Of a stretch of 64,000 nucleotides of DNA, positions 54,185 through 64,000 are shown one piece after another. The position numbers and the translations under genes were made by a program. Below the pieces are notes generated by a model. That model was not told the DNA's origin, made no database searches, and saw only the letters and a list, made by a program, of their open reading frames with translations. Each line of letters starts with the position of its first letter. Positions within the stretch are counted from its first letter, which is position 1. The DNA is from Micrococcales bacterium 72-143 (lineage in GTDB: Bacteria > Actinomycetota > Actinomycetes > Actinomycetales > Microbacteriaceae): NCBI GenBank assembly GCA_001898835.1, contig MKVM01000005.1:124001-188000 (forward strand), written 5' to 3'.

Positions 54185-54242
54185 GTTGCGCCTCTGGTGG
54201 TCGTCACAATCATGACGCTCACACCCGGCGCGGGCCGCGATG

Positions 54243-54262
54243 CCCCCCGTACTCGGCATACC
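54243..54262 (+). repeat. Direct repeat A1 upstream of the DUF262 gene
   Basis: ccccccgtactcggcatacc; 18/20 match to 56602-56621. Confidence 0.85.
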
Positions 54263-54323
54263 CTTCGTCGCGCATCCCCGAGACACTGAACGACAAGGAA
54301 CGCATCAGCGAGGAGAGCGCGAA

Positions 54324-56555
54324 TTGAAGCCTGACAAGGAATCACCTCAAAAGGTCTTCTTCCAGCCCGCGAGATTGATCGTCCCCCTGTTCCAGCGGCC
54401 TTACGTTTGGTCGAAGGAGCTTCAGTGGGAGCCCTTGTGGCAAGACATCCAACGCCTCACAGAGTTGTTGGCAAAGGACTCAACCGCGACCCACTTCATG
54501 GGTGCGTTCGTCGTCCAGCAGCTTCCGTCGGAGCTCGGCCACATGCCCACATGGAGCGTTATCGATGGCCAGCAGCGCCTCACCACTCTGCAGGTGCTTC
54601 TCGATGCGTTGCACTCTCAACTTGTTCTGCACGAGGAGGTGATGCTCGCTGGTCAAGTGGAACCTCTAATTGAGAATCCCGCTGCCTTCAGAAAAGGGGC
54701 GCACGACAGATACAAAGTCTGGCCGACGAACCATGATCGCGCGGGGTTCGCAGCCGTGATGTCGGCCGACAATCCCATCGACTACCACGCTCTGGCACCG
54801 TCGAAGCTCCGCGAAGCACACGAATACTTCAGCAAGGCGATTGCGACCTGGTTGCAGGAATCGCCAGATGCCAGTAGCAGTGCCCATCTTCTTGTGACTG
54901 CGGTGACCGCTCAACTGGAGCTTGTGAGCATTCGACTCGACCCAAACGAGGACGCACAGGCGATATTCGAAACCCTTAATGCGCGAGGAGTTCCGCTCAG
55001 CGCAGCAGACTTGATTAAGAACTTCGTCTTTCAGAACTACCCGGGCAACGACTCCGAAATCGAGGACGCCTACCACCAGAATTGGGCAGACCTCGAGACC
55101 CCATGGTGGATCACGACTGTAACTGCCGGCAGAATCACCCATCCGAGGTCGTCGTGGTTCCTCTGGCACTGGTTGCGTGCCCGGAAGCTCGAGGACTTTC
55201 CCATTCGTGAACTGTTTAGTCAGTTCAAGGAGTACGTCACATCAAGCGCCGGAAGTCTCGCCTCACTTCTCCCAGAAATCAAAGAAGCTGCAGATAGTTA
55301 CCGCGCGGTGATAGAGGGCTCCCAACAGCCGAATGGGCCTCTCACCCGTGCTCAGTGGTTCAGCTATCGCGTCGGCACGCTCGACTCAGAGGTCGTTCGC
55401 CCGCTACTCATTTGGCTGGACGAGGCTCCTCAATCCGACGTCACGGACGACGACAAGGCGCGCATATTCCGCTCCCTCGAGAGCTGGTTCGTGCGTCGCG
55501 CAATCGTAAAAGCCCCCTCCCAAGGAGCCAACCGGCTGATCATCGAGCTCATGGTGCACCTCAGCAAGAAGCCGCATGACTCGCTGGCCGACGAAGTCGA
55601 GTCCTACCTGGCCTCCAACAAGACCCCTGTCGGGTACTGGCCCGACGACGCGGAGGTAGCCGAAGCCCTCAGAGACGCGCCTGCGTACAACAAGTATCTG
55701 CGGGCCCGCCTTCGAATGATCCTGGAGGCGCTGGAGGACCGACGACGAGGCTACCCGGACTGGAAAGCGATGGGCATGGGTCCCGTCGCCCGCGGAGTCG
55801 GGACCGTTGAACACCTGTTGCCACAGAAGTGGCGCAACAACTGGGCCACCGATTGGCCTGCCGACCAGGCCGAGTTCAATGCTGCTTCACGCGACCGAAG
55901 GCTTCACGAGCTCGGCAATCTCACTCTCGTCACTCAGAAGCTAAATTCTCGAGCGTCAAATGCCAACTGGGAGACCAAGGTCAACTATTTCCAGGAAGTG
56001 AACGATGTACTGCTGACGAACGACGTCATCCAAGCCACACCTTTGCAATGGGATGATGCACTTATCTCGGCACGCACCGAGACGCTTACCTCATCTATCT
56101 TGGAAATCTGGCCTGTCCCCAACGGACATGTAGGCATCACCGCTAGGCATGAGGCACCATCCACACCTGGTGAAGTTGACCTTGCGCTGCTGGTGTCGGA
56201 AGGACTGATCGCGCCGGGCGCTGCTCTTGTTGCGCGGCCGGCGGTCTTTAGAGGTGTTACGGCCGCGGTCGGTATCGATGGCCGGATCTACATCGACGAC
56301 AAAGCGTTCGATACGCCGAGCGCTGCCGGTGTGGCCGTCAATGCTGCTGGCGGCTACAAGGGGGCTATTAACGGTTGGCGCTTCTGGAAGGTGGCGGACT
56401 CGGGCAAGTCGCTGTGGGACGTTCGAAATGAATACCGTCTCAGCCTCGGGGAGGAATCTGGAGGTGACGATCTCGGCGACGATGCCGTGATCTCCGAGCA
56501 AATCGAGGCGGAGCTCTCGGCTGCCGAAGAGCTCGACGAGCAAGACGAGGTATGA
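54324..56555 (+). CDS. DUF262-DUF1524 (GmrSD-type) protein with C-terminal RAMA/DUF4357-like domain
   Basis: TTG start; VPLFQRPYVWSKELQWEPLWQDI, WSVIDGQQRLTTLQVLLD, VEHLLPQKWRNNW...RLHELGNLTLVTQKLNSRASNANWETK; C-terminal VSEGLIAPGAAL...GIDGRIYIDDKAFDTPSAAGVAVNAAGGYKGAINGWRFWKV. Confidence 0.88.
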   Translation: MKPDKESPQKVFFQPARLIVPLFQRPYVWSKELQWEPLWQDIQRLTELLAKDSTATHFMGAFVVQQLPSELGHMPTWSVIDGQQRLTTLQVLLDALHSQLVLHEEVMLAGQVEPLIENPAAFRKGAHDRYKVWPTNHDRAGFAAVMSADNPIDYHALAPSKLREAHEYFSKAIATWLQESPDASSSAHLLVTAVTAQLELVSIRLDPNEDAQAIFETLNARGVPLSAADLIKNFVFQNYPGNDSEIEDAYHQNWADLETPWWITTVTAGRITHPRSSWFLWHWLRARKLEDFPIRELFSQFKEYVTSSAGSLASLLPEIKEAADSYRAVIEGSQQPNGPLTRAQWFSYRVGTLDSEVVRPLLIWLDEAPQSDVTDDDKARIFRSLESWFVRRAIVKAPSQGANRLIIELMVHLSKKPHDSLADEVESYLASNKTPVGYWPDDAEVAEALRDAPAYNKYLRARLRMILEALEDRRRGYPDWKAMGMGPVARGVGTVEHLLPQKWRNNWATDWPADQAEFNAASRDRRLHELGNLTLVTQKLNSRASNANWETKVNYFQEVNDVLLTNDVIQATPLQWDDALISARTETLTSSILEIWPVPNGHVGITARHEAPSTPGEVDLALLVSEGLIAPGAALVARPAVFRGVTAAVGIDGRIYIDDKAFDTPSAAGVAVNAAGGYKGAINGWRFWKVADSGKSLWDVRNEYRLSLGEESGGDDLGDDAVISEQIEAELSAAEELDEQDEV

Positions 56556-56675: not shown

Positions 56676-58754
56676 ATGACGGCCGGCGAATCCGCGGGGC
56701 TCGAGGCCGAGCGCCAGCTCGCTCTCGCCGCCGCCCACGAGGCGGAGGCTCTCGCCGCCCGCGAGCGCGCCGAGAACTTCATGGCCGCATCCGCCAGCGA
56801 GAAGCGCACCGTGCAGGCGCTCGCGCCGCTCACCGCCCACGGCTACCACCTGATCGCTGACCGCCAGTGGCCGGGCAGCCGCACCGCGCAAGTCGACCTT
56901 GTGGTGGTCGGCCCATCGGGCGTGCACATCGTGGATTCGAAGATGTGGCGCGAGGTCACCGTAGCCGCAGGGCACATCTACCGGGGCGATGCGGATGTGA
57001 CCGAGGAGTTCGACGGGCTCGCCGAGCTCGCCTGGAAGACGGAGGCAGCGCTCGCGGATGTCGGCCTCGCCCCCGGCGAGGTGCACGCGGTCGCCGTGTT
57101 CACCGGCAAGAAGGGCGTCACCGGCACGGTAAACACGGTCGAGCTGGTGGGCGACGCGGATATCGCGCGCCACATCGCACGTCGCAGCGGCCGGCTCACC
57201 TCGGCGATGGTCGACAAAGTGCACCGCGCGGTGCTCGACTTCTTCCCCCACGTGACCGCGCCTCAGCCGATCGCACTCACCATCCCCGAGCCGGTGCTCG
57301 AGAGCAAGCCCGTCGAACTCGACATCGCCGAGCTGCCGAGCGCCGACGAGATCCAGGCCGAGCTGCTGGAGGCGATGCTCGCCCCGCCCATCGAGGAGTG
57401 GATGGCGTTCCTCCACCCAGACCAAGCGAAGCTCGTACGCCGCGGCTTCAATGGCCCCTCCCGCATCCGTGGCGCCGCCGGCACCGGCAAGACGGTAGTG
57501 GGCCTCCACCGCGCCGCCTACCTCGCACGGTCACGCCCGGGCAAGGTGCTCGTGATCACCTACGTGCGTACCCTGCCCGTGGTGCTGAACAGCCTCATGC
57601 AGCGGATGGCGCCCGAGGTGGCCGACCGCGTTGAGTTCGCGGGCGTCCACCAGCTCGCCCGACGCATCCTCGACGAGCGCGGCGTGGCAGTGCGCCTCGA
57701 CAACCGCAAGGCCGGCGACGCGCTCAAGGCCGCGTGGGCGGCAGCTGAACCGACGCTTGCCTCGATCGAGAAGGACCGCGCGTACTGGCAGGAGGAGGTG
57801 GAGAGCGTCATCAAGGGACGCGGCTTCACCCGCTTCGAGCAGTACGCCGACTGCGCCCGCGTGGGTCGCCGCCGCAAGCTCGGCGTCGACCAGCGTCGCG
57901 CGGTGTGGGCGCTGTTCCTCGACTATGAGCAGCGGTTGCGCGCATCCCGCACCCACGACTTCGCCGACCTCGTGCTGCTGGCCGAGAAGGAGCTCGCCCG
58001 CGAGCCGCTCGCCGGCTACAGCGCCGTGGTGGTCGACGAGGCACAGGACCTCTCGTGCGCGATGGTGCGGATGCTCTCGAGCATCGCCGGCGACGGTCCG
58101 GACGCGTTCACCCTGATCGGCGACGGCCAACAGACCATCTACCCCGGTGGCTACACCCTCGCCGAGGCGGGGCTGTCGGTGGCGGGGCGCGGCGTGATCC
58201 TCGACATCAACTACCGCAACACGGCCGAGATCCTGGAGGCGGCTGCGACGGTGGTGGCATCCGACGGCTACACCGACATCGAGGATGCGGCCGAGCTGCG
58301 CTACGAGGCGGCCCGACCGGTGGCGCGGCACGGGCGTCGCCCTATCCGCGCGAGCTACCCGAACACGGCACTGCACGACGCTGCGCTCGTGGACCATGTG
58401 CGCACGGTGACCGCGGCGATCGACACCGGCCTCGGCGATGTCGGCATCCTGTGCACCAACAACGGCCACGTCGCGCGGGTCGTGCACCTGCTCGAGAACG
58501 CCGACATTCCGACGGTCCAGCTCACCGACTACGACGGCCGCCCCACCGACCGCGTGAAGGTCGGCACGATCCAGCGTGCGAAGGGCCTCGAGTTCAAGCA
58601 GGTGCTGCTGCCGTGGACGGATGCGCGGCTGCTCGCGGCGGGGGCGCCTGGCGCCGAGCGCTCCGAGAAGGACGAGCGCGAGCGGCGGGTGCTGTACGTG
58701 GGGATGACGCGGGCGCGGGATGGGCTGTGGGTGGGATCTGTTGCCGCACGCTGA
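56676..58754 (+). CDS. NERD nuclease domain-UvrD/Rep-type helicase
   Basis: NERD: AQVDLVVVGPSGVHIVDSKMW; helicase: RIRGAAGTGKTVVGLHRAAYLA, VVDEAQDLS, GDGQQTIYPGGYTLAEAG, VKVGTIQRAKGLEFKQVLLP. Confidence 0.92.
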   Translation: MTAGESAGLEAERQLALAAAHEAEALAARERAENFMAASASEKRTVQALAPLTAHGYHLIADRQWPGSRTAQVDLVVVGPSGVHIVDSKMWREVTVAAGHIYRGDADVTEEFDGLAELAWKTEAALADVGLAPGEVHAVAVFTGKKGVTGTVNTVELVGDADIARHIARRSGRLTSAMVDKVHRAVLDFFPHVTAPQPIALTIPEPVLESKPVELDIAELPSADEIQAELLEAMLAPPIEEWMAFLHPDQAKLVRRGFNGPSRIRGAAGTGKTVVGLHRAAYLARSRPGKVLVITYVRTLPVVLNSLMQRMAPEVADRVEFAGVHQLARRILDERGVAVRLDNRKAGDALKAAWAAAEPTLASIEKDRAYWQEEVESVIKGRGFTRFEQYADCARVGRRRKLGVDQRRAVWALFLDYEQRLRASRTHDFADLVLLAEKELAREPLAGYSAVVVDEAQDLSCAMVRMLSSIAGDGPDAFTLIGDGQQTIYPGGYTLAEAGLSVAGRGVILDINYRNTAEILEAAATVVASDGYTDIEDAAELRYEAARPVARHGRRPIRASYPNTALHDAALVDHVRTVTAAIDTGLGDVGILCTNNGHVARVVHLLENADIPTVQLTDYDGRPTDRVKVGTIQRAKGLEFKQVLLPWTDARLLAAGAPGAERSEKDERERRVLYVGMTRARDGLWVGSVAAR

Positions 58755-58991: not shown

Positions 58992-61900
58992 ATGACGCGC
59001 ATCTTCGACAACATCAACGACAAGCTCGGTGGCCATCTCCAGGCGACGCTCAAGACGTTCGAACGGCTCGACGTTGCGGTCGGCTACTTCAGCCTCCGGG
59101 GGTGGAAGGTCTTCGACGAGATCGTCAAGACGAAGGCACTGCCGCGGGACCAGACAAAGTCCACCGTCCGCATCCTGCTCGGAATGATGTCCGGCGGGCC
59201 CCAGGAGGAGGTGCTCGACGAGCTTCAGGCCACAGTTGAGGGGCGCGAGGTGCAGGACGCGGATCGCGAAATTGCCACCTTCCGAATGCACGAGCTGCTT
59301 GACCACCTCCGCACCCAGCTCATGCGCGGTGTGCCGACGCAGACGGACCGCGAGACGCTCGGCTCGCTACGGCAGCTCATCAAGGAGGGCCGTGTCGAGT
59401 TCAAGGTGTTCACGCGGCGACCGCTCCACGGCAAGGCGTACATCTTCCACCGCGACGATGTCGCGAACCCGATCGCAGCCTACGTCGGCAGTTCCAACCT
59501 CACACCCTCGGGGCTCGCAAGCAACCTCGAGCTGAACGTCGATGTGCTCGACTCGTCCGGTGGCGGCAAGGATCTAGCGAAGTGGTTCGAGGACCGCTGG
59601 AACGATCCATTCAGCATCCTGATCGGCGCACAGCTCCTTGACCTGATCGACCAGTCTTGGGCCGCGGTGGAGCCCCGGTCTCCGTACGAGGTCTTCCTCA
59701 AGGTCTGCTATGACCTGAGCCGAGATGTGCGCGAGGGACTCGACGAGTACTCGGTGCCGAACGAGGTGAAGTCCGAGCTCCTGGATTACCAGTCCACCGC
59801 CGTCCGCACGCTCGCCCGGCGCATCATGTCCCGCGGCGGCACGATGCTCGGCGACGTCGTCGGTCTCGGTAAGACGATCACTGCCGTCGCGGTTGCACTC
59901 ATGCTCCGGGAGGAGCACGGATATCTGCCGCTCGTCATCTGTCCGAAGAACCTGGTCACGATGTGGGAGGGCTACTTCGACAGCTACGGCATCCCCGGGC
60001 AGGTAGTCAGCTACAGCGTCGCCCACACGGTGCTCCCGACCATCAGTCACTACCGCTTCGCCATCGTGGACGAGTCGCACACGCTCCGCAACGACGAGCG
60101 CCGCGACTACAAGGCGGTCCAGGAGTATCTGGAGCGGGCGAACGCCAAGGCGCTACTCCTGACGGCGACGCCGTACAACCGTCGCTTCGAGGATGTCGCG
60201 AACCAGCTCGGCTTGTTCATCCAGCCCGATGACGACCTCGGCATCGCACCGATCAACGCCCTCGCGGCCGACCCGAAGCTCATCGACAAGGTCGATGGCA
60301 AGATCACCACGTTGCAGGCGTTCCGGAAGTCCGAGGACGCGGATGACTGGAAGCGCCTGATGAGCGAGCACCTCATCCGCCGTACCCGGACGTTCATCAA
60401 GAACAACTACTCGGAGACCGACGAGGACGGCCAGAAGTACCTGACCTTCGCGAACGGCGAGCGTTTCCGCTTCCCCGAGCGGATCGCCGTGCCGGTCGAC
60501 CACCCCTTCGCTGCTGACGATCCCGCCGCGCTCATGGTCGACGACATCACTCTCGACGCGCTGTTCGCCCTGATCCTGCCACGCTACTCCCTCGCCGACT
60601 ACGTCGACCGGGCCAAGGAGAAGAGCTGGACGGCTAAGGAGAAGGAGGTCGTGGCGAACTTAGATCGCGCGCGCTCTAATGCGGCGGCGTTCGTCAGGAC
60701 GACACTGTTCAAGCGGCTGTCCTCGGGAGGCCATGCCTTCACGTTGTCGCTGCGCCGCCATGCGGCCCGCAACGAGATGTTCCTCTACGCGATCGACAAC
60801 GGCCTTGCCGTGCCGACAGGGACCATCCAGGAAGCGGACCTGCTCGATGACGACGACCTGATCGAGCATGAGGTCGACGACAGCGAGCGGCTCAATGACG
60901 CGGCCTCCCAGCGGTATGAGGCGCTCGCGAACGACGCCCCGGACTACGTCACCTGGGTCCGCCCAGACCTCTTCACACCTGGACTCCGGCAGGCGCTCGC
61001 CGCCGATACTGACGCGATCCGATCCCTGCTCGACCTCTACGGTGAGTGGGACGCCTCCCGAGACTCCAAGCTGGCGGAACTTATCAAGCTGCTCGAAGAG
61101 ACGCATCCCGAGGACAAGGTGCTCGTCTTCACCGAGTACAAGGACACCGCCAACTACCTCGCCGGGGCACTCCGCGCACATGGGATCGACAAGGTCGATG
61201 CCGCGACCGGTGACAACGAGGATCCCACGCAGCTCGCGATCCGCTTCTCCCCGAAGTCGAACCGCTCGCTCATCCCCGAGGGGCAGACCGTGGACGAGCT
61301 CCGCGTGCTCATTTCGACCGACGTGCTCAGCGAGGGACAGAACCTCCAGGACGCACACATCGTCGTCAACTACGACCTCCCGTGGGCGATTGTCCGCCTG
61401 GTGCAGCGCGCCGGCCGCATCGACCGCGTCGGACAGACCGCGCCTGAGGTGCTCCTGTACTCGATCTTCCACGGCACGCTGAACGGCGTGCTGTCACTGC
61501 GTCGACGGATCGCTGAACGGCTGGAGCAGAATGCCAAGGCGTTCGGCTCGGACGAGCGATTCTTCGGCACGGACGGCGAGGTGCAGGTCATCAAGGACCT
61601 CTACGAGGGACGACTTGACGAGCCAGTCGAGGAGGACGACATCGACGCGGCCAGCCTCGCCTACCTGTACTGGCAGAACGCGCAGAAGCAGACACCCGAG
61701 ATCGCTGCGAAGGTCGAGTACCTGCCCGATCTCCTTGACGCCACACGGGCGAAGCGGATCACCGACGACGATGAAGGCGTCGCCGCTTATGTCCGGACCG
61801 AGGCCGGTATTGACGGCTTCGGCTGGATCGGTCTGGACGGTACGACGCGACTCCTCACGGGTGTCGAGACGCTCCGCATCTTCCAGAGCACCCCTGAGGA

Positions 61901-62258
61901 GCCCGCGCTAGAGCGGCTCCACCGTCATGACGATCTCGTGGCGGAGCTCGTCCGCAGCGACCTCGCGACACCCACCGCCATCGCCGGGCGTCTTCGTGGC
62001 GTGCGGAAGACGGTCTGGAATCGTCTGGGCGCCGGACTCTTCGATTACGGGCAGGAAGCCACTGCGGCGCTCGATCTGCTCTACCAGCACCCCCTCACGA
62101 ACGAGGCCGACCGCCGACTGCGGAACGCGATCCGAAACGGCGCTACCGATGAGGAACTCGCCGGTCGACTCGCGAGCCTGTACCGCGACGAGCGCCTCGT
62201 GATCGAACAGCGCGGGAACGATGCCATTCGGATCGTCAGCGCGATGGGAGTGAAGTAA
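58992..62258 (+). CDS. PLD-like nuclease-SNF2 family helicase fusion
   Basis: N-terminal VAVGYFSLRGWKVF...HGKAYIFHRDD...AAYVGSSNLTPSGLASNLELNV; helicase MLGDVVGLGKTITAVAVAL, VDESHTLRN, LVQRAGRIDRVGQTAPEV. Confidence 0.93.
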   Translation: MTRIFDNINDKLGGHLQATLKTFERLDVAVGYFSLRGWKVFDEIVKTKALPRDQTKSTVRILLGMMSGGPQEEVLDELQATVEGREVQDADREIATFRMHELLDHLRTQLMRGVPTQTDRETLGSLRQLIKEGRVEFKVFTRRPLHGKAYIFHRDDVANPIAAYVGSSNLTPSGLASNLELNVDVLDSSGGGKDLAKWFEDRWNDPFSILIGAQLLDLIDQSWAAVEPRSPYEVFLKVCYDLSRDVREGLDEYSVPNEVKSELLDYQSTAVRTLARRIMSRGGTMLGDVVGLGKTITAVAVALMLREEHGYLPLVICPKNLVTMWEGYFDSYGIPGQVVSYSVAHTVLPTISHYRFAIVDESHTLRNDERRDYKAVQEYLERANAKALLLTATPYNRRFEDVANQLGLFIQPDDDLGIAPINALAADPKLIDKVDGKITTLQAFRKSEDADDWKRLMSEHLIRRTRTFIKNNYSETDEDGQKYLTFANGERFRFPERIAVPVDHPFAADDPAALMVDDITLDALFALILPRYSLADYVDRAKEKSWTAKEKEVVANLDRARSNAAAFVRTTLFKRLSSGGHAFTLSLRRHAARNEMFLYAIDNGLAVPTGTIQEADLLDDDDLIEHEVDDSERLNDAASQRYEALANDAPDYVTWVRPDLFTPGLRQALAADTDAIRSLLDLYGEWDASRDSKLAELIKLLEETHPEDKVLVFTEYKDTANYLAGALRAHGIDKVDAATGDNEDPTQLAIRFSPKSNRSLIPEGQTVDELRVLISTDVLSEGQNLQDAHIVVNYDLPWAIVRLVQRAGRIDRVGQTAPEVLLYSIFHGTLNGVLSLRRRIAERLEQNAKAFGSDERFFGTDGEVQVIKDLYEGRLDEPVEEDDIDAASLAYLYWQNAQKQTPEIAAKVEYLPDLLDATRAKRITDDDEGVAAYVRTEAGIDGFGWIGLDGTTRLLTGVETLRIFQSTPEEPALERLHRHDDLVAELVRSDLATPTAIAGRLRGVRKTVWNRLGAGLFDYGQEATAALDLLYQHPLTNEADRRLRNAIRNGATDEELAGRLASLYRDERLVIEQRGNDAIRIVSAMGVK

Positions 62259-64000
62259 TGCCGGTGTCCCCACTCCTGGCGCTCGTCGAGCAGCGGAAGT
62301 TCCGCGAGCTCTTCCGCGACCATCTGCTCTGGTCCAACCCCGACCAGCCGCCGCTCAAGGTGGAAGTCGAAGGGGTCATCTACACCCTGGAGCAGGTCGC
62401 CGGATTCAAGGGCCTGCGGGTGTGGCACTGTGCCCAGGTGCCCCCGAAGCGCGTGCAGCGGCTCATCGACCAAGAGGTCGGCACCCGCAGTAGCAGCGAG
62501 CGGCTCCTGATCTTCGCGGATGATCGGGTACAGGCGTGGCGCTGGCCGCGACGTGCCCAGCTCGGCGGTGCCAATGCCAAGCTCGTGCTCCACGAGTACA
62601 AGGCAGGCTCCGACGACCAGCGACTCGTCCGCCAGCTCGAAGCGATCAAGATCGGCTTCAGCGAGGACCTCAAGCTCCCCGACCTCCTTGCTCGGATGCG
62701 CGGGGCGTTTGACCACGAGGCAGAGACCGCGTCGGCTCAGGCCGCACGGCTCATGGGCACGCTCTACACCGAGCTGGAGTCGGCGAAGTGGGACGAGCGG
62801 AACGCGACGTTGCTACTGGCTCGCCTGCTGTTCCTCTTCTTCGCTGACGACTCCGCGATGTGGCAGAAGGGACAGGCGAACTGGAGTGGACCGGAGCACC
62901 CGTTCCACGACTACCTCGCCAACCACACGACCGGTGGCACGCTGTCCGCCGACCTGGAGGCCCTCTTCGAGGCGCTGGCGACCGAGGAGGCGAAACGCCG
63001 GGCCGACCTCGACACCGCTGCGGCGGTGTTCCGCTACGTGAACGGCGGCCTGTTCGACGAGCCACTCCAGATGGGCTCGCTCTCGGCAACGTTCCGCGCA
63101 GAACTGATCGCGGCGGGCGAGTTCGATTGGTCGATCATTTCCCCAGCGATCTTCGGCTCGATGTTCCAGACGGTGAAGGACCGGAAAGCGCGTCGCGCTG
63201 GCGGCGAGCACTACACGACCGAGGAGAGCATCCTCAAGACCATCGAGCCGCTCTTCCTCACCGAGTTCCGAGACCGACTGGAAGCCGCACGAGGCGACAA
63301 GGGACAGCTCACCAAACTGCACAACGACCTTGGCCGCGTTCGCGTACTCGATCCGGCGTGCGGCTGTGGGAACTTCCTCATCATCGCCTACCGGGAGCTG
63401 CGCGCGATCGAACTCGACCTGCTCGTCGCGCAGCGGGAGCTGGAAGAAGCGGAGAAGGGGAAGGGCTCTTTCCAGCTGAGCTTCGACGTCAGCGGATTCA
63501 TCAAGGTCACCGTCGACCACTTCTTCGGCATCGAGATCGAGGAGTGGCCGGCACGCATCGCCGAGACCGCCATGCTCCTCGTCGACCATCTCGCGAATCA
63601 GCGCATGGAACAGGACTTCGGCATGGCACCCGACCGCCTCCCAATCCGCATCACGCCGACGATCGTCCACGCGAACGCCCTCCGCCACGAATGGTCAAGC
63701 GTCGTGCCGCCGAGCGAGGACGTCATCATCATCGGCAACCCGCCCTTCATCGGCCAGTACACGAAGACCGCGGAGCAGACGGCCGATGCGAAGCGCATCT
63801 GGGGGACCCGCTACAACGGCTACCTCGACTACGTCACCTCCTGGTACGCGCTCGCGCTGAAGTACTACGGCAAGCAGGCTGGTAGGTGGGCCTTCGTCTC
63901 GACCAATTCCATCGCCCAGGGCGAGGGTGCCGAGTTCTTGTTCCGTCCGATCTTCGGCGCGGACTGGCGGGTCCGGTTCGCTCACCGCTCATTCCAATGG
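62258..64000 (+). CDS. MmeI/PglX-like class I SAM-dependent DNA methyltransferase (3' truncated by the window)
   Basis: TAATG overlap with the helicase stop; frame open to 64000 with RVLDPACGCGNFLIIAYREL, GIEIEEWPARIAETAMLL, VIIIGNPPFIGQYTK, GYLDYVTSWYALALKYYG, AFVSTNSIAQGEG. Confidence 0.93.
   Translation, partial: MPVSPLLALVEQRKFRELFRDHLLWSNPDQPPLKVEVEGVIYTLEQVAGFKGLRVWHCAQVPPKRVQRLIDQEVGTRSSSERLLIFADDRVQAWRWPRRAQLGGANAKLVLHEYKAGSDDQRLVRQLEAIKIGFSEDLKLPDLLARMRGAFDHEAETASAQAARLMGTLYTELESAKWDERNATLLLARLLFLFFADDSAMWQKGQANWSGPEHPFHDYLANHTTGGTLSADLEALFEALATEEAKRRADLDTAAAVFRYVNGGLFDEPLQMGSLSATFRAELIAAGEFDWSIISPAIFGSMFQTVKDRKARRAGGEHYTTEESILKTIEPLFLTEFRDRLEAARGDKGQLTKLHNDLGRVRVLDPACGCGNFLIIAYRELRAIELDLLVAQRELEEAEKGKGSFQLSFDVSGFIKVTVDHFFGIEIEEWPARIAETAMLLVDHLANQRMEQDFGMAPDRLPIRITPTIVHANALRHEWSSVVPPSEDVIIIGNPPFIGQYTKTAEQTADAKRIWGTRYNGYLDYVTSWYALALKYYGKQAGRWAFVSTNSIAQGEGAEFLFRPIFGADWRVRFAHRSFQW

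Follow-up and report, generated by a model that had tools for sequence, protein, structure and literature searches.

A PLD-SNF2 motor protein and an overlapping MmeI-like methyltransferase from Micrococcales bacterium 72-143: a predicted two-subunit restriction-modification pair

Two overlapping genes were examined near the end of a 64,000-nucleotide stretch of DNA from Micrococcales bacterium 72-143 (hereafter the window, contig MKVM01000005.1, positions 124001-188000). The first gene encodes a PLD-family nuclease domain fused to an SNF2-type motor and the second an MmeI-like N6-adenine methyltransferase (MTase), and the pair is probably a two-subunit ATP-dependent restriction-modification (R-M) enzyme. 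The catalytic residues of both proteins are intact, the MmeI nuclease has been lost from the MTase, and the two genes, whose overlap is conserved, occur together at nearly all loci compared. By analogy, the plan is best read as that of a Type ISP enzyme divided over two chains, a PLD domain taking the place of the Mrr-like nuclease. An earlier note, made from the sequence of the window, had offered a compact two-gene R-M-like system as one alternative, and the analysis supports that suggestion.

Gene layout and domain make-up

The first open reading frame (ORF) occupies positions 58992-62258 of the + strand and encodes a protein of 1088 amino acids, and the second starts at 62258 and is open at the window end (64000). 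Both lie where the earlier note placed them, and the TAATG stop/start overlap was confirmed. The note was also correct that the window ends inside the MTase gene: the contig runs on past this point, and the extended gene encodes 935 residues with its true end at 65065 (62258-65065 in window-equivalent coordinates). The two reading frames are intact and overlapping. The TAATG overlap, which has a ribosome-site-like GGAG a few bases upstream, suggests that the helicase and MTase are translationally coupled. The features of the pair are listed below.

58992..62258, + strand: PLD-SNF2 protein, predicted restriction (R-like) subunit with nuclease and DNA motor (Pfam, alignment of 57 relatives)
58992..59696, + strand: N-terminal PLD-family nuclease domain (residues 1-235)
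59427-59435, + strand: HGK of the PLD domain (invariant H146 and K148, 57/57 relatives)
59487-59498, + strand: G166-S-S-N169 of the PLD domain (57/57 relatives; E180 likewise invariant)
59757..61571, + strand: SNF2-type superfamily 2 (SF2) motor (residues about 256-860)
61572..62255, + strand: C-terminal region of the motor protein (residues about 861-1088), conserved among relatives, without a Pfam match
62256-62260, + strand: TAATG overlap; the final A of the helicase TAA is the first base of the MTase ATG (1-base overlap)
62258..64000, + strand, cut by the window (full gene L002:1258-4065): MmeI-like N6-adenine MTase (MmeI Pfam domains, PDB 5hr4)
62258..62728, + strand: N-terminal alpha/beta domain of the MTase replacing the MmeI nuclease (residues 1-157)
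63350..63373, + strand: MTase motif I, DPACGCGN (residues 365-372), identical in all 14 aligned actinobacterial sequences
63737..63748, + strand: MTase motif IV, NPPF (residues 494-497), every aligned sequence having NPPF or NPPY

The first protein matched the Pfam profiles PLDc_2 (1.3e-8), RE_NgoFVII (1.3e-7), SNF2-rel_dom and Helicase_C, of which RE_NgoFVII represents the N-terminal PLD domain of the restriction enzyme NgoFVII. The motor motifs were located as GLGKT (residue 291), DESH (360), LTATP (390), SEGQNLQD (780) and QRAGRIDR (805). Residue conservation was scored across 57 full-length relatives using an alignment that spanned the whole protein, and H146, K148, S167, S168, N169 and E180 were invariant in all 57, as were the SNF2 motifs. 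The position of the classical HKD aspartate was occupied by phenylalanine in 34 of these relatives, histidine in 18, tyrosine in 5 and aspartate in none. The protein described here reads HGKAYIFH, with histidine at the aspartate position; the earlier note had read this residue correctly, but its hint of a broken site is not supported. Because aspartate occurs at this position in none of the 57 relatives while the H, K, N and E residues never vary, its absence is a family trait and not the sign of a dead enzyme, and a defective HKD motif was rejected. The working enzyme SauUSI carries a glutamate at the same position (PMC7913695).

An AlphaFold model of residues 1-245 was built from 38 sequences and had a predicted local distance difference test score (pLDDT) of 79 and a predicted template modelling score (pTM) of 0.78, with a weak region at residues 168-180. 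When the model was compared with solved structures the best match was SauUSI (E=1.2e-5), followed by the NgoAVII R-protein (1e-4), and BfiI ranked ninth (5e-3), short of the E<0.001 line. The TM-scores of these matches, normalised by query length, were modest at 0.36-0.49. A sequence-profile search of the solved relatives again placed SauUSI on top (E=0.004). Pfam profiles and predicted fold together support the N-terminal PLD domain fused to a full SNF2 motor that had been proposed, and the fold check on the N-terminus returned PLD restriction enzymes.

The second protein contains the Pfam domains MmeI_hel, MmeI_Mtase, MmeI_TRD and MmeI_C, and residues 159-913 align with MmeI (PDB 5hr4) at E=8e-157. 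The PADLOC Type IIG profile matched the MTase at E=1.2e-252, from profile position 144 on, compared with 2.4e-4 for PglX. Of the label "MmeI/PglX-like" given to the protein in the earlier note only the MmeI part was borne out, and a relation to PglX or DrmMI was rejected as the MTase groups with MmeI. Motif I and the NPPF of motif IV were present as described and are conserved in relatives.

The nuclease residues of MmeI are D70, E80 and K82 (PMC4833311), and the MmeI nuclease region gave no alignment with residues 1-158 of the MTase. Residues 1-157 were predicted to form an alpha/beta domain with high confidence across most of its length, and a comparison of this fold with solved structures gave no significant match to a nuclease. 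The 14 actinobacterial sequences lack a conserved D..(D/E)xK, as does a 23-sequence alignment that includes distant relatives. An E-Y-K does occur here but is unconserved, and a nuclease in this part of the MTase was rejected. Since the MmeI nuclease region has been replaced and there is no conserved triad, the PLD domain would be the natural nuclease of the pair. The N-terminal part of the MTase is shared with the larger Eco57I-type partner MTases of other phyla, at 21-28% identity over approximately 357 residues. The simplest reading of this conservation is that the domain serves the partnership with the motor, as a candidate docking domain.

The published MmeI recognition code (PMC4833311) was used to predict the target of the C-terminal target recognition domain (TRD). 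In the alignments of the MTase with MmeI and with its relatives, K820 and D822 correspond to MmeI E806 and R808 and predict a G at recognition position 6, while A788 and R824 point to a purine at position 4. The code gives nothing here for positions 1-3, so that the expected word is NNNRAG, methylated on its A, which offers a direct test. The specificity residues of the TRD vary between relatives, as expected for R-M.

Conservation of the pair among relatives

Across 85,462 species genomes, 62 loci were found, most with a full-length motor match near 40% identity. Motor relatives were found in Nitrospirota, Planctomycetota, Verrucomicrobiota, Pseudomonadota, Chloroflexota, Bacteroidota and other phyla; the family is rare, a full-length relative being present in few of the genomes sampled across family, order, class and phylum. 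In 41 of the 43 loci of these near relatives that had at least 1.5 kb of downstream sequence, the motor is followed within three genes by an MTase encoded on the same strand, and all 41 MTases belong to one cluster. The two loci without a following MTase hold fragments of the motor gene only. The corresponding background, taken over the loci's other large genes, was 27 in 375. In the Actinomycetota, 13 further loci carry an MmeI-type MTase, and the two genes overlap by 1 or 4 bases in 12 of the 16 actinobacterial pairs (this one included, together with two that have Eco57I-type MTases). These figures, 12/16 for overlap and 41/43 for pairing against a background of 27/375, show that the gene overlap is not a matter of chance. 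A quick tree, in which some branches are long and the Eco57I label was checked with Pfam on examples only, groups the motors paired with MmeI-type MTases into one clade (support 99) within the family (support 100). The conserved unit is the two-gene pair only.

The pair is also present on Rhodococcus and Synechocystis plasmids, and a search of 50,697 phage records gave no match at E<=1e-40, so that phage carriage was rejected. On the Synechocystis plasmid pSYSX (L137:7001-14434) the motor and an Eco57I-type MTase are separated by a small gene and by one for a VapC-family toxin; this is a well-studied strain in which the pair could be tested. Two more distant PLD-SNF2 loci (L098:6847-14303 and L100:3041-10545) have an Eco57I-type MTase of 1334-1345 residues upstream of the motor and not downstream. 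In the same bacterial family as the present genome, two loci (L102:6230-15459 and L103:6320-10236) contain an SNF2-type helicase that lacks the PLD domain, followed by DUF4391, and in L102 this is joined by an N6/N4 MTase and a Type III-like Res protein to give a four-gene set.

Proposed mechanism, alternatives and genomic neighbourhood

In the proposed mechanism the MmeI-like subunit would recognise an asymmetric word through its TRD and methylate one adenine on one strand. The PLD-SNF2 subunit would dock on the MTase, perhaps via the conserved MTase N-terminal domain, and an unmethylated site would start the motor, causing ATP-driven movement along the DNA. Cutting would follow the encounter of two motors, which would let their PLD domains dimerise and build one active site between them. 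Complex formation, translocation, cleavage and anti-phage activity are all expected properties of the pair. In a broader and more tentative reading, to which we give somewhat less than an even chance, the pair belongs to an unnamed but widespread two-subunit class. Here a PLD-SNF2 motor would combine with exchangeable MTase-TRD partners (MmeI-type in Actinomycetota, Eco57I-type elsewhere) via a shared N-terminal docking domain, and a swappable third gene, in this genome a HEPN RNase, would act as a back-up killer. The pair would be a clean case of restriction enzymes being built from exchangeable modules, in which the cutting motor is kept and the recognition-methylation partner changes family. 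It is also a warning that an MmeI-like gene counted as a stand-alone Type IIG enzyme may lack a nuclease of its own and rely on a neighbour; PADLOC-type tools would count this MTase as a self-sufficient Type IIG enzyme.

Several points weigh against the two-subunit R-M enzyme. Its activity is predicted from sequence and structure models, and the docking domain is a guess from conservation alone. The canonical HKD aspartate is missing from the PLD family throughout. The relatives were found by patterns derived from this protein, and the pairing statistic describes near relatives and not all PLD-SNF2 proteins. Finally, the DnmA-YeeB-YeeC system of Bacillus subtilis, the nearest studied system in plan, showed neither restriction nor protection from phage in the conditions used (PMC9973331). 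This last observation leads to the first alternative, in which the pair is a relic: the MTase would be an orphan, gene-regulating enzyme and the motor-nuclease would no longer restrict, as proposed for B. subtilis DnmA, itself a nuclease-less MmeI homologue beside a helicase gene for which no restriction was seen (PMC7261158, PMC9973331). A relic motor should decay, however, and the invariant motor and PLD residues and the intact, overlapping frames make this explanation unlikely.

The genes around the pair are listed below, those past position 64000 in window-equivalent coordinates.

54240-56555: GmrSD-like protein, RAMA domain at its C-terminus, lying two genes upstream of the pair
56676-58754, + strand: NERD nuclease domain joined to a UvrD-like helicase (PADLOC candidate C3a187), 237 bases upstream of the pair
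65062-66249 (L002:4062-5249): third ORF, 395 residues, Hypoth_Ymh, with its start inside the MTase stop (ATGA)
69905-72993 (L002:8905-11993): RecQ helicase fused to a phosphoribosyltransferase-like domain, followed directly by a DprA-like gene

The third ORF overlaps the MTase gene by 4 bases, and its product contains R-N-E-K-A-H at residue 225, which fits Rx4H. Hypoth_Ymh (PF09509) belongs to the HEPN families, has a predicted RNase site and is known from operons with R-M genes (PMC3710099). These properties, together with the family-wide lack of the HKD aspartate, would suit a second alternative, in which the PLD domain is a dimerisation or DNA-grip domain and the HEPN/Ymh protein is the killing effector of an abortive response. 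The catalytic H, K, N and E of the PLD domain are nevertheless invariant. No recognisable Ymh gene adjoins the pair in the other loci examined, so that Ymh cannot be the core effector of the family, and we regard this explanation as slightly less probable than a relic. HEPN/Ymh was likewise rejected as a core component, as it stands beside the pair only in this genome. Elsewhere the third slot holds DUF3644 (also HEPN), AAA_21, SLFN AlbA_2, HNH, RhuM or a GHKL ATPase, and it looks like a position for changeable back-up effectors.

The pair is contained in an island of lower G+C content at approximately 52846-74430 (window-equivalent), between a LacI gene and a DUF4192-like gene. In a genome of the same genus the same two flanks hold approximately 20 kb without nucleotide similarity to the island, and the island is therefore a variable spot. 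Its other genes include an XRE-ImmA/IrrE gene and a Schlafen-type helicase. The GmrSD-RAMA protein may provide a Type IV-like restriction activity with a possible modified-base reader. A DprA-like cluster also occurs at 15 of the 62 distant loci that hold the PLD-SNF2 gene.

Membership of a DISARM, BREX or DUF499-centred (BR type-2) system is highly improbable: although the DrmD, BrxHI and HmaA SNF2 profiles match the motor, and an HKD nuclease is likewise found at the N-terminus of Type-2 BR helicases (PMC12839542), the whole genome lacks PglZ, DUF1998/MZB and DUF499, the neighbouring genes differ, and the best defence-profile matches fall far under the curated cut-offs (DrmD 146 of 610 bits). 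The genome searches for PglZ (PF08665) and DUF499 (PF04465) had positive controls, and that for DUF1998/MZB (PF09369; DrmB) was positive in 8 control genomes; DUF3780 gave no match here and none in the control genomes either, and no DrmA was present among the neighbouring genes scanned. The PLD-fused DISARM or BREX variant considered in the earlier note was consequently rejected, its canonical genes being absent downstream, where other genes are found, and the MTase grouping with MmeI.

Comparison with known systems

Type-2 BR and PbeA/CxC-ABC systems resemble the pair in that an HKD nuclease is joined to an SF2/SNF2 helicase and an N6-MTase is encoded close by (PMC12839542, PMC10853773), and the fusion to a Swi2/Snf2 helicase is present here. 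However, the former needs DUF499 and DUF3780, the first of which is absent from this genome, and the latter needs the CxC-ABC ATPase and DndE, neither of which was seen at this locus.

SauUSI has an N-terminal PLD nuclease on an SF2 ATPase and is the closest PLD structure, but it is a single-chain Type IV enzyme that cuts methylated DNA without an MTase, and its motif is HxKx4E compared with HxKx4[FHY] in the family described here (PMC7913695). NgoAVII and CglI combine a PLD nuclease, an SF2 ATPase and an MTase, consistent with the RE_NgoFVII match, while their PLD and ATPase are separate proteins and they contain a B3 recognition domain (PMC7913695); the PLD-SNF2 protein has no Pfam match to B3, its PLD domain running directly into SNF2.

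MmeI and the Type IIL enzymes share the MTase, helical spacer, TRD and C-terminal domains of the second protein (PDB 5hr4, E=8e-157). They have their own PD-ExK nuclease and no ATP motor, whereas here another domain stands in place of the nuclease and the adjoining gene encodes a motor-nuclease. Type ISP enzymes consist of a nuclease, SF2 motor, gamma-MTase and TRD and recognise an asymmetric site (PMC3874165). LlaGI and LlaBIII thus contain the same set of modules as the pair, the difference being a single chain with an Mrr-like nuclease in place of two overlapping genes with a PLD nuclease.

The DnmA-YeeB-YeeC systems of B. subtilis and Vibrio also place a nuclease-less MmeI-like MTase beside an SF2 helicase gene in defence islands, an arrangement noted earlier by Morgan 2009 according to the passage of PMC7261158 that cites it. 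The gene order is reversed, a PLD domain is not reported in YeeB, and YeeC (T5orf172/GIY-YIG) is not beside the pair, whose neighbours are NERD-UvrD and Hypoth_Ymh. DnmA methylates GACGAG (PMC9973331), and Vibrio crassostreae homologues are cited in a passage of the same paper as having affected phage sensitivity. PADLOC lists an "HKD+Snf2" candidate, and no paper describing a PLD-SNF2 protein paired with an MmeI-type MTase was found in a literature coverage that was incomplete. With DnmA-YeeB-YeeC and the HKD-SNF2 effectors as precedents, the pair is best read as a little-described but widespread variation on known defence.

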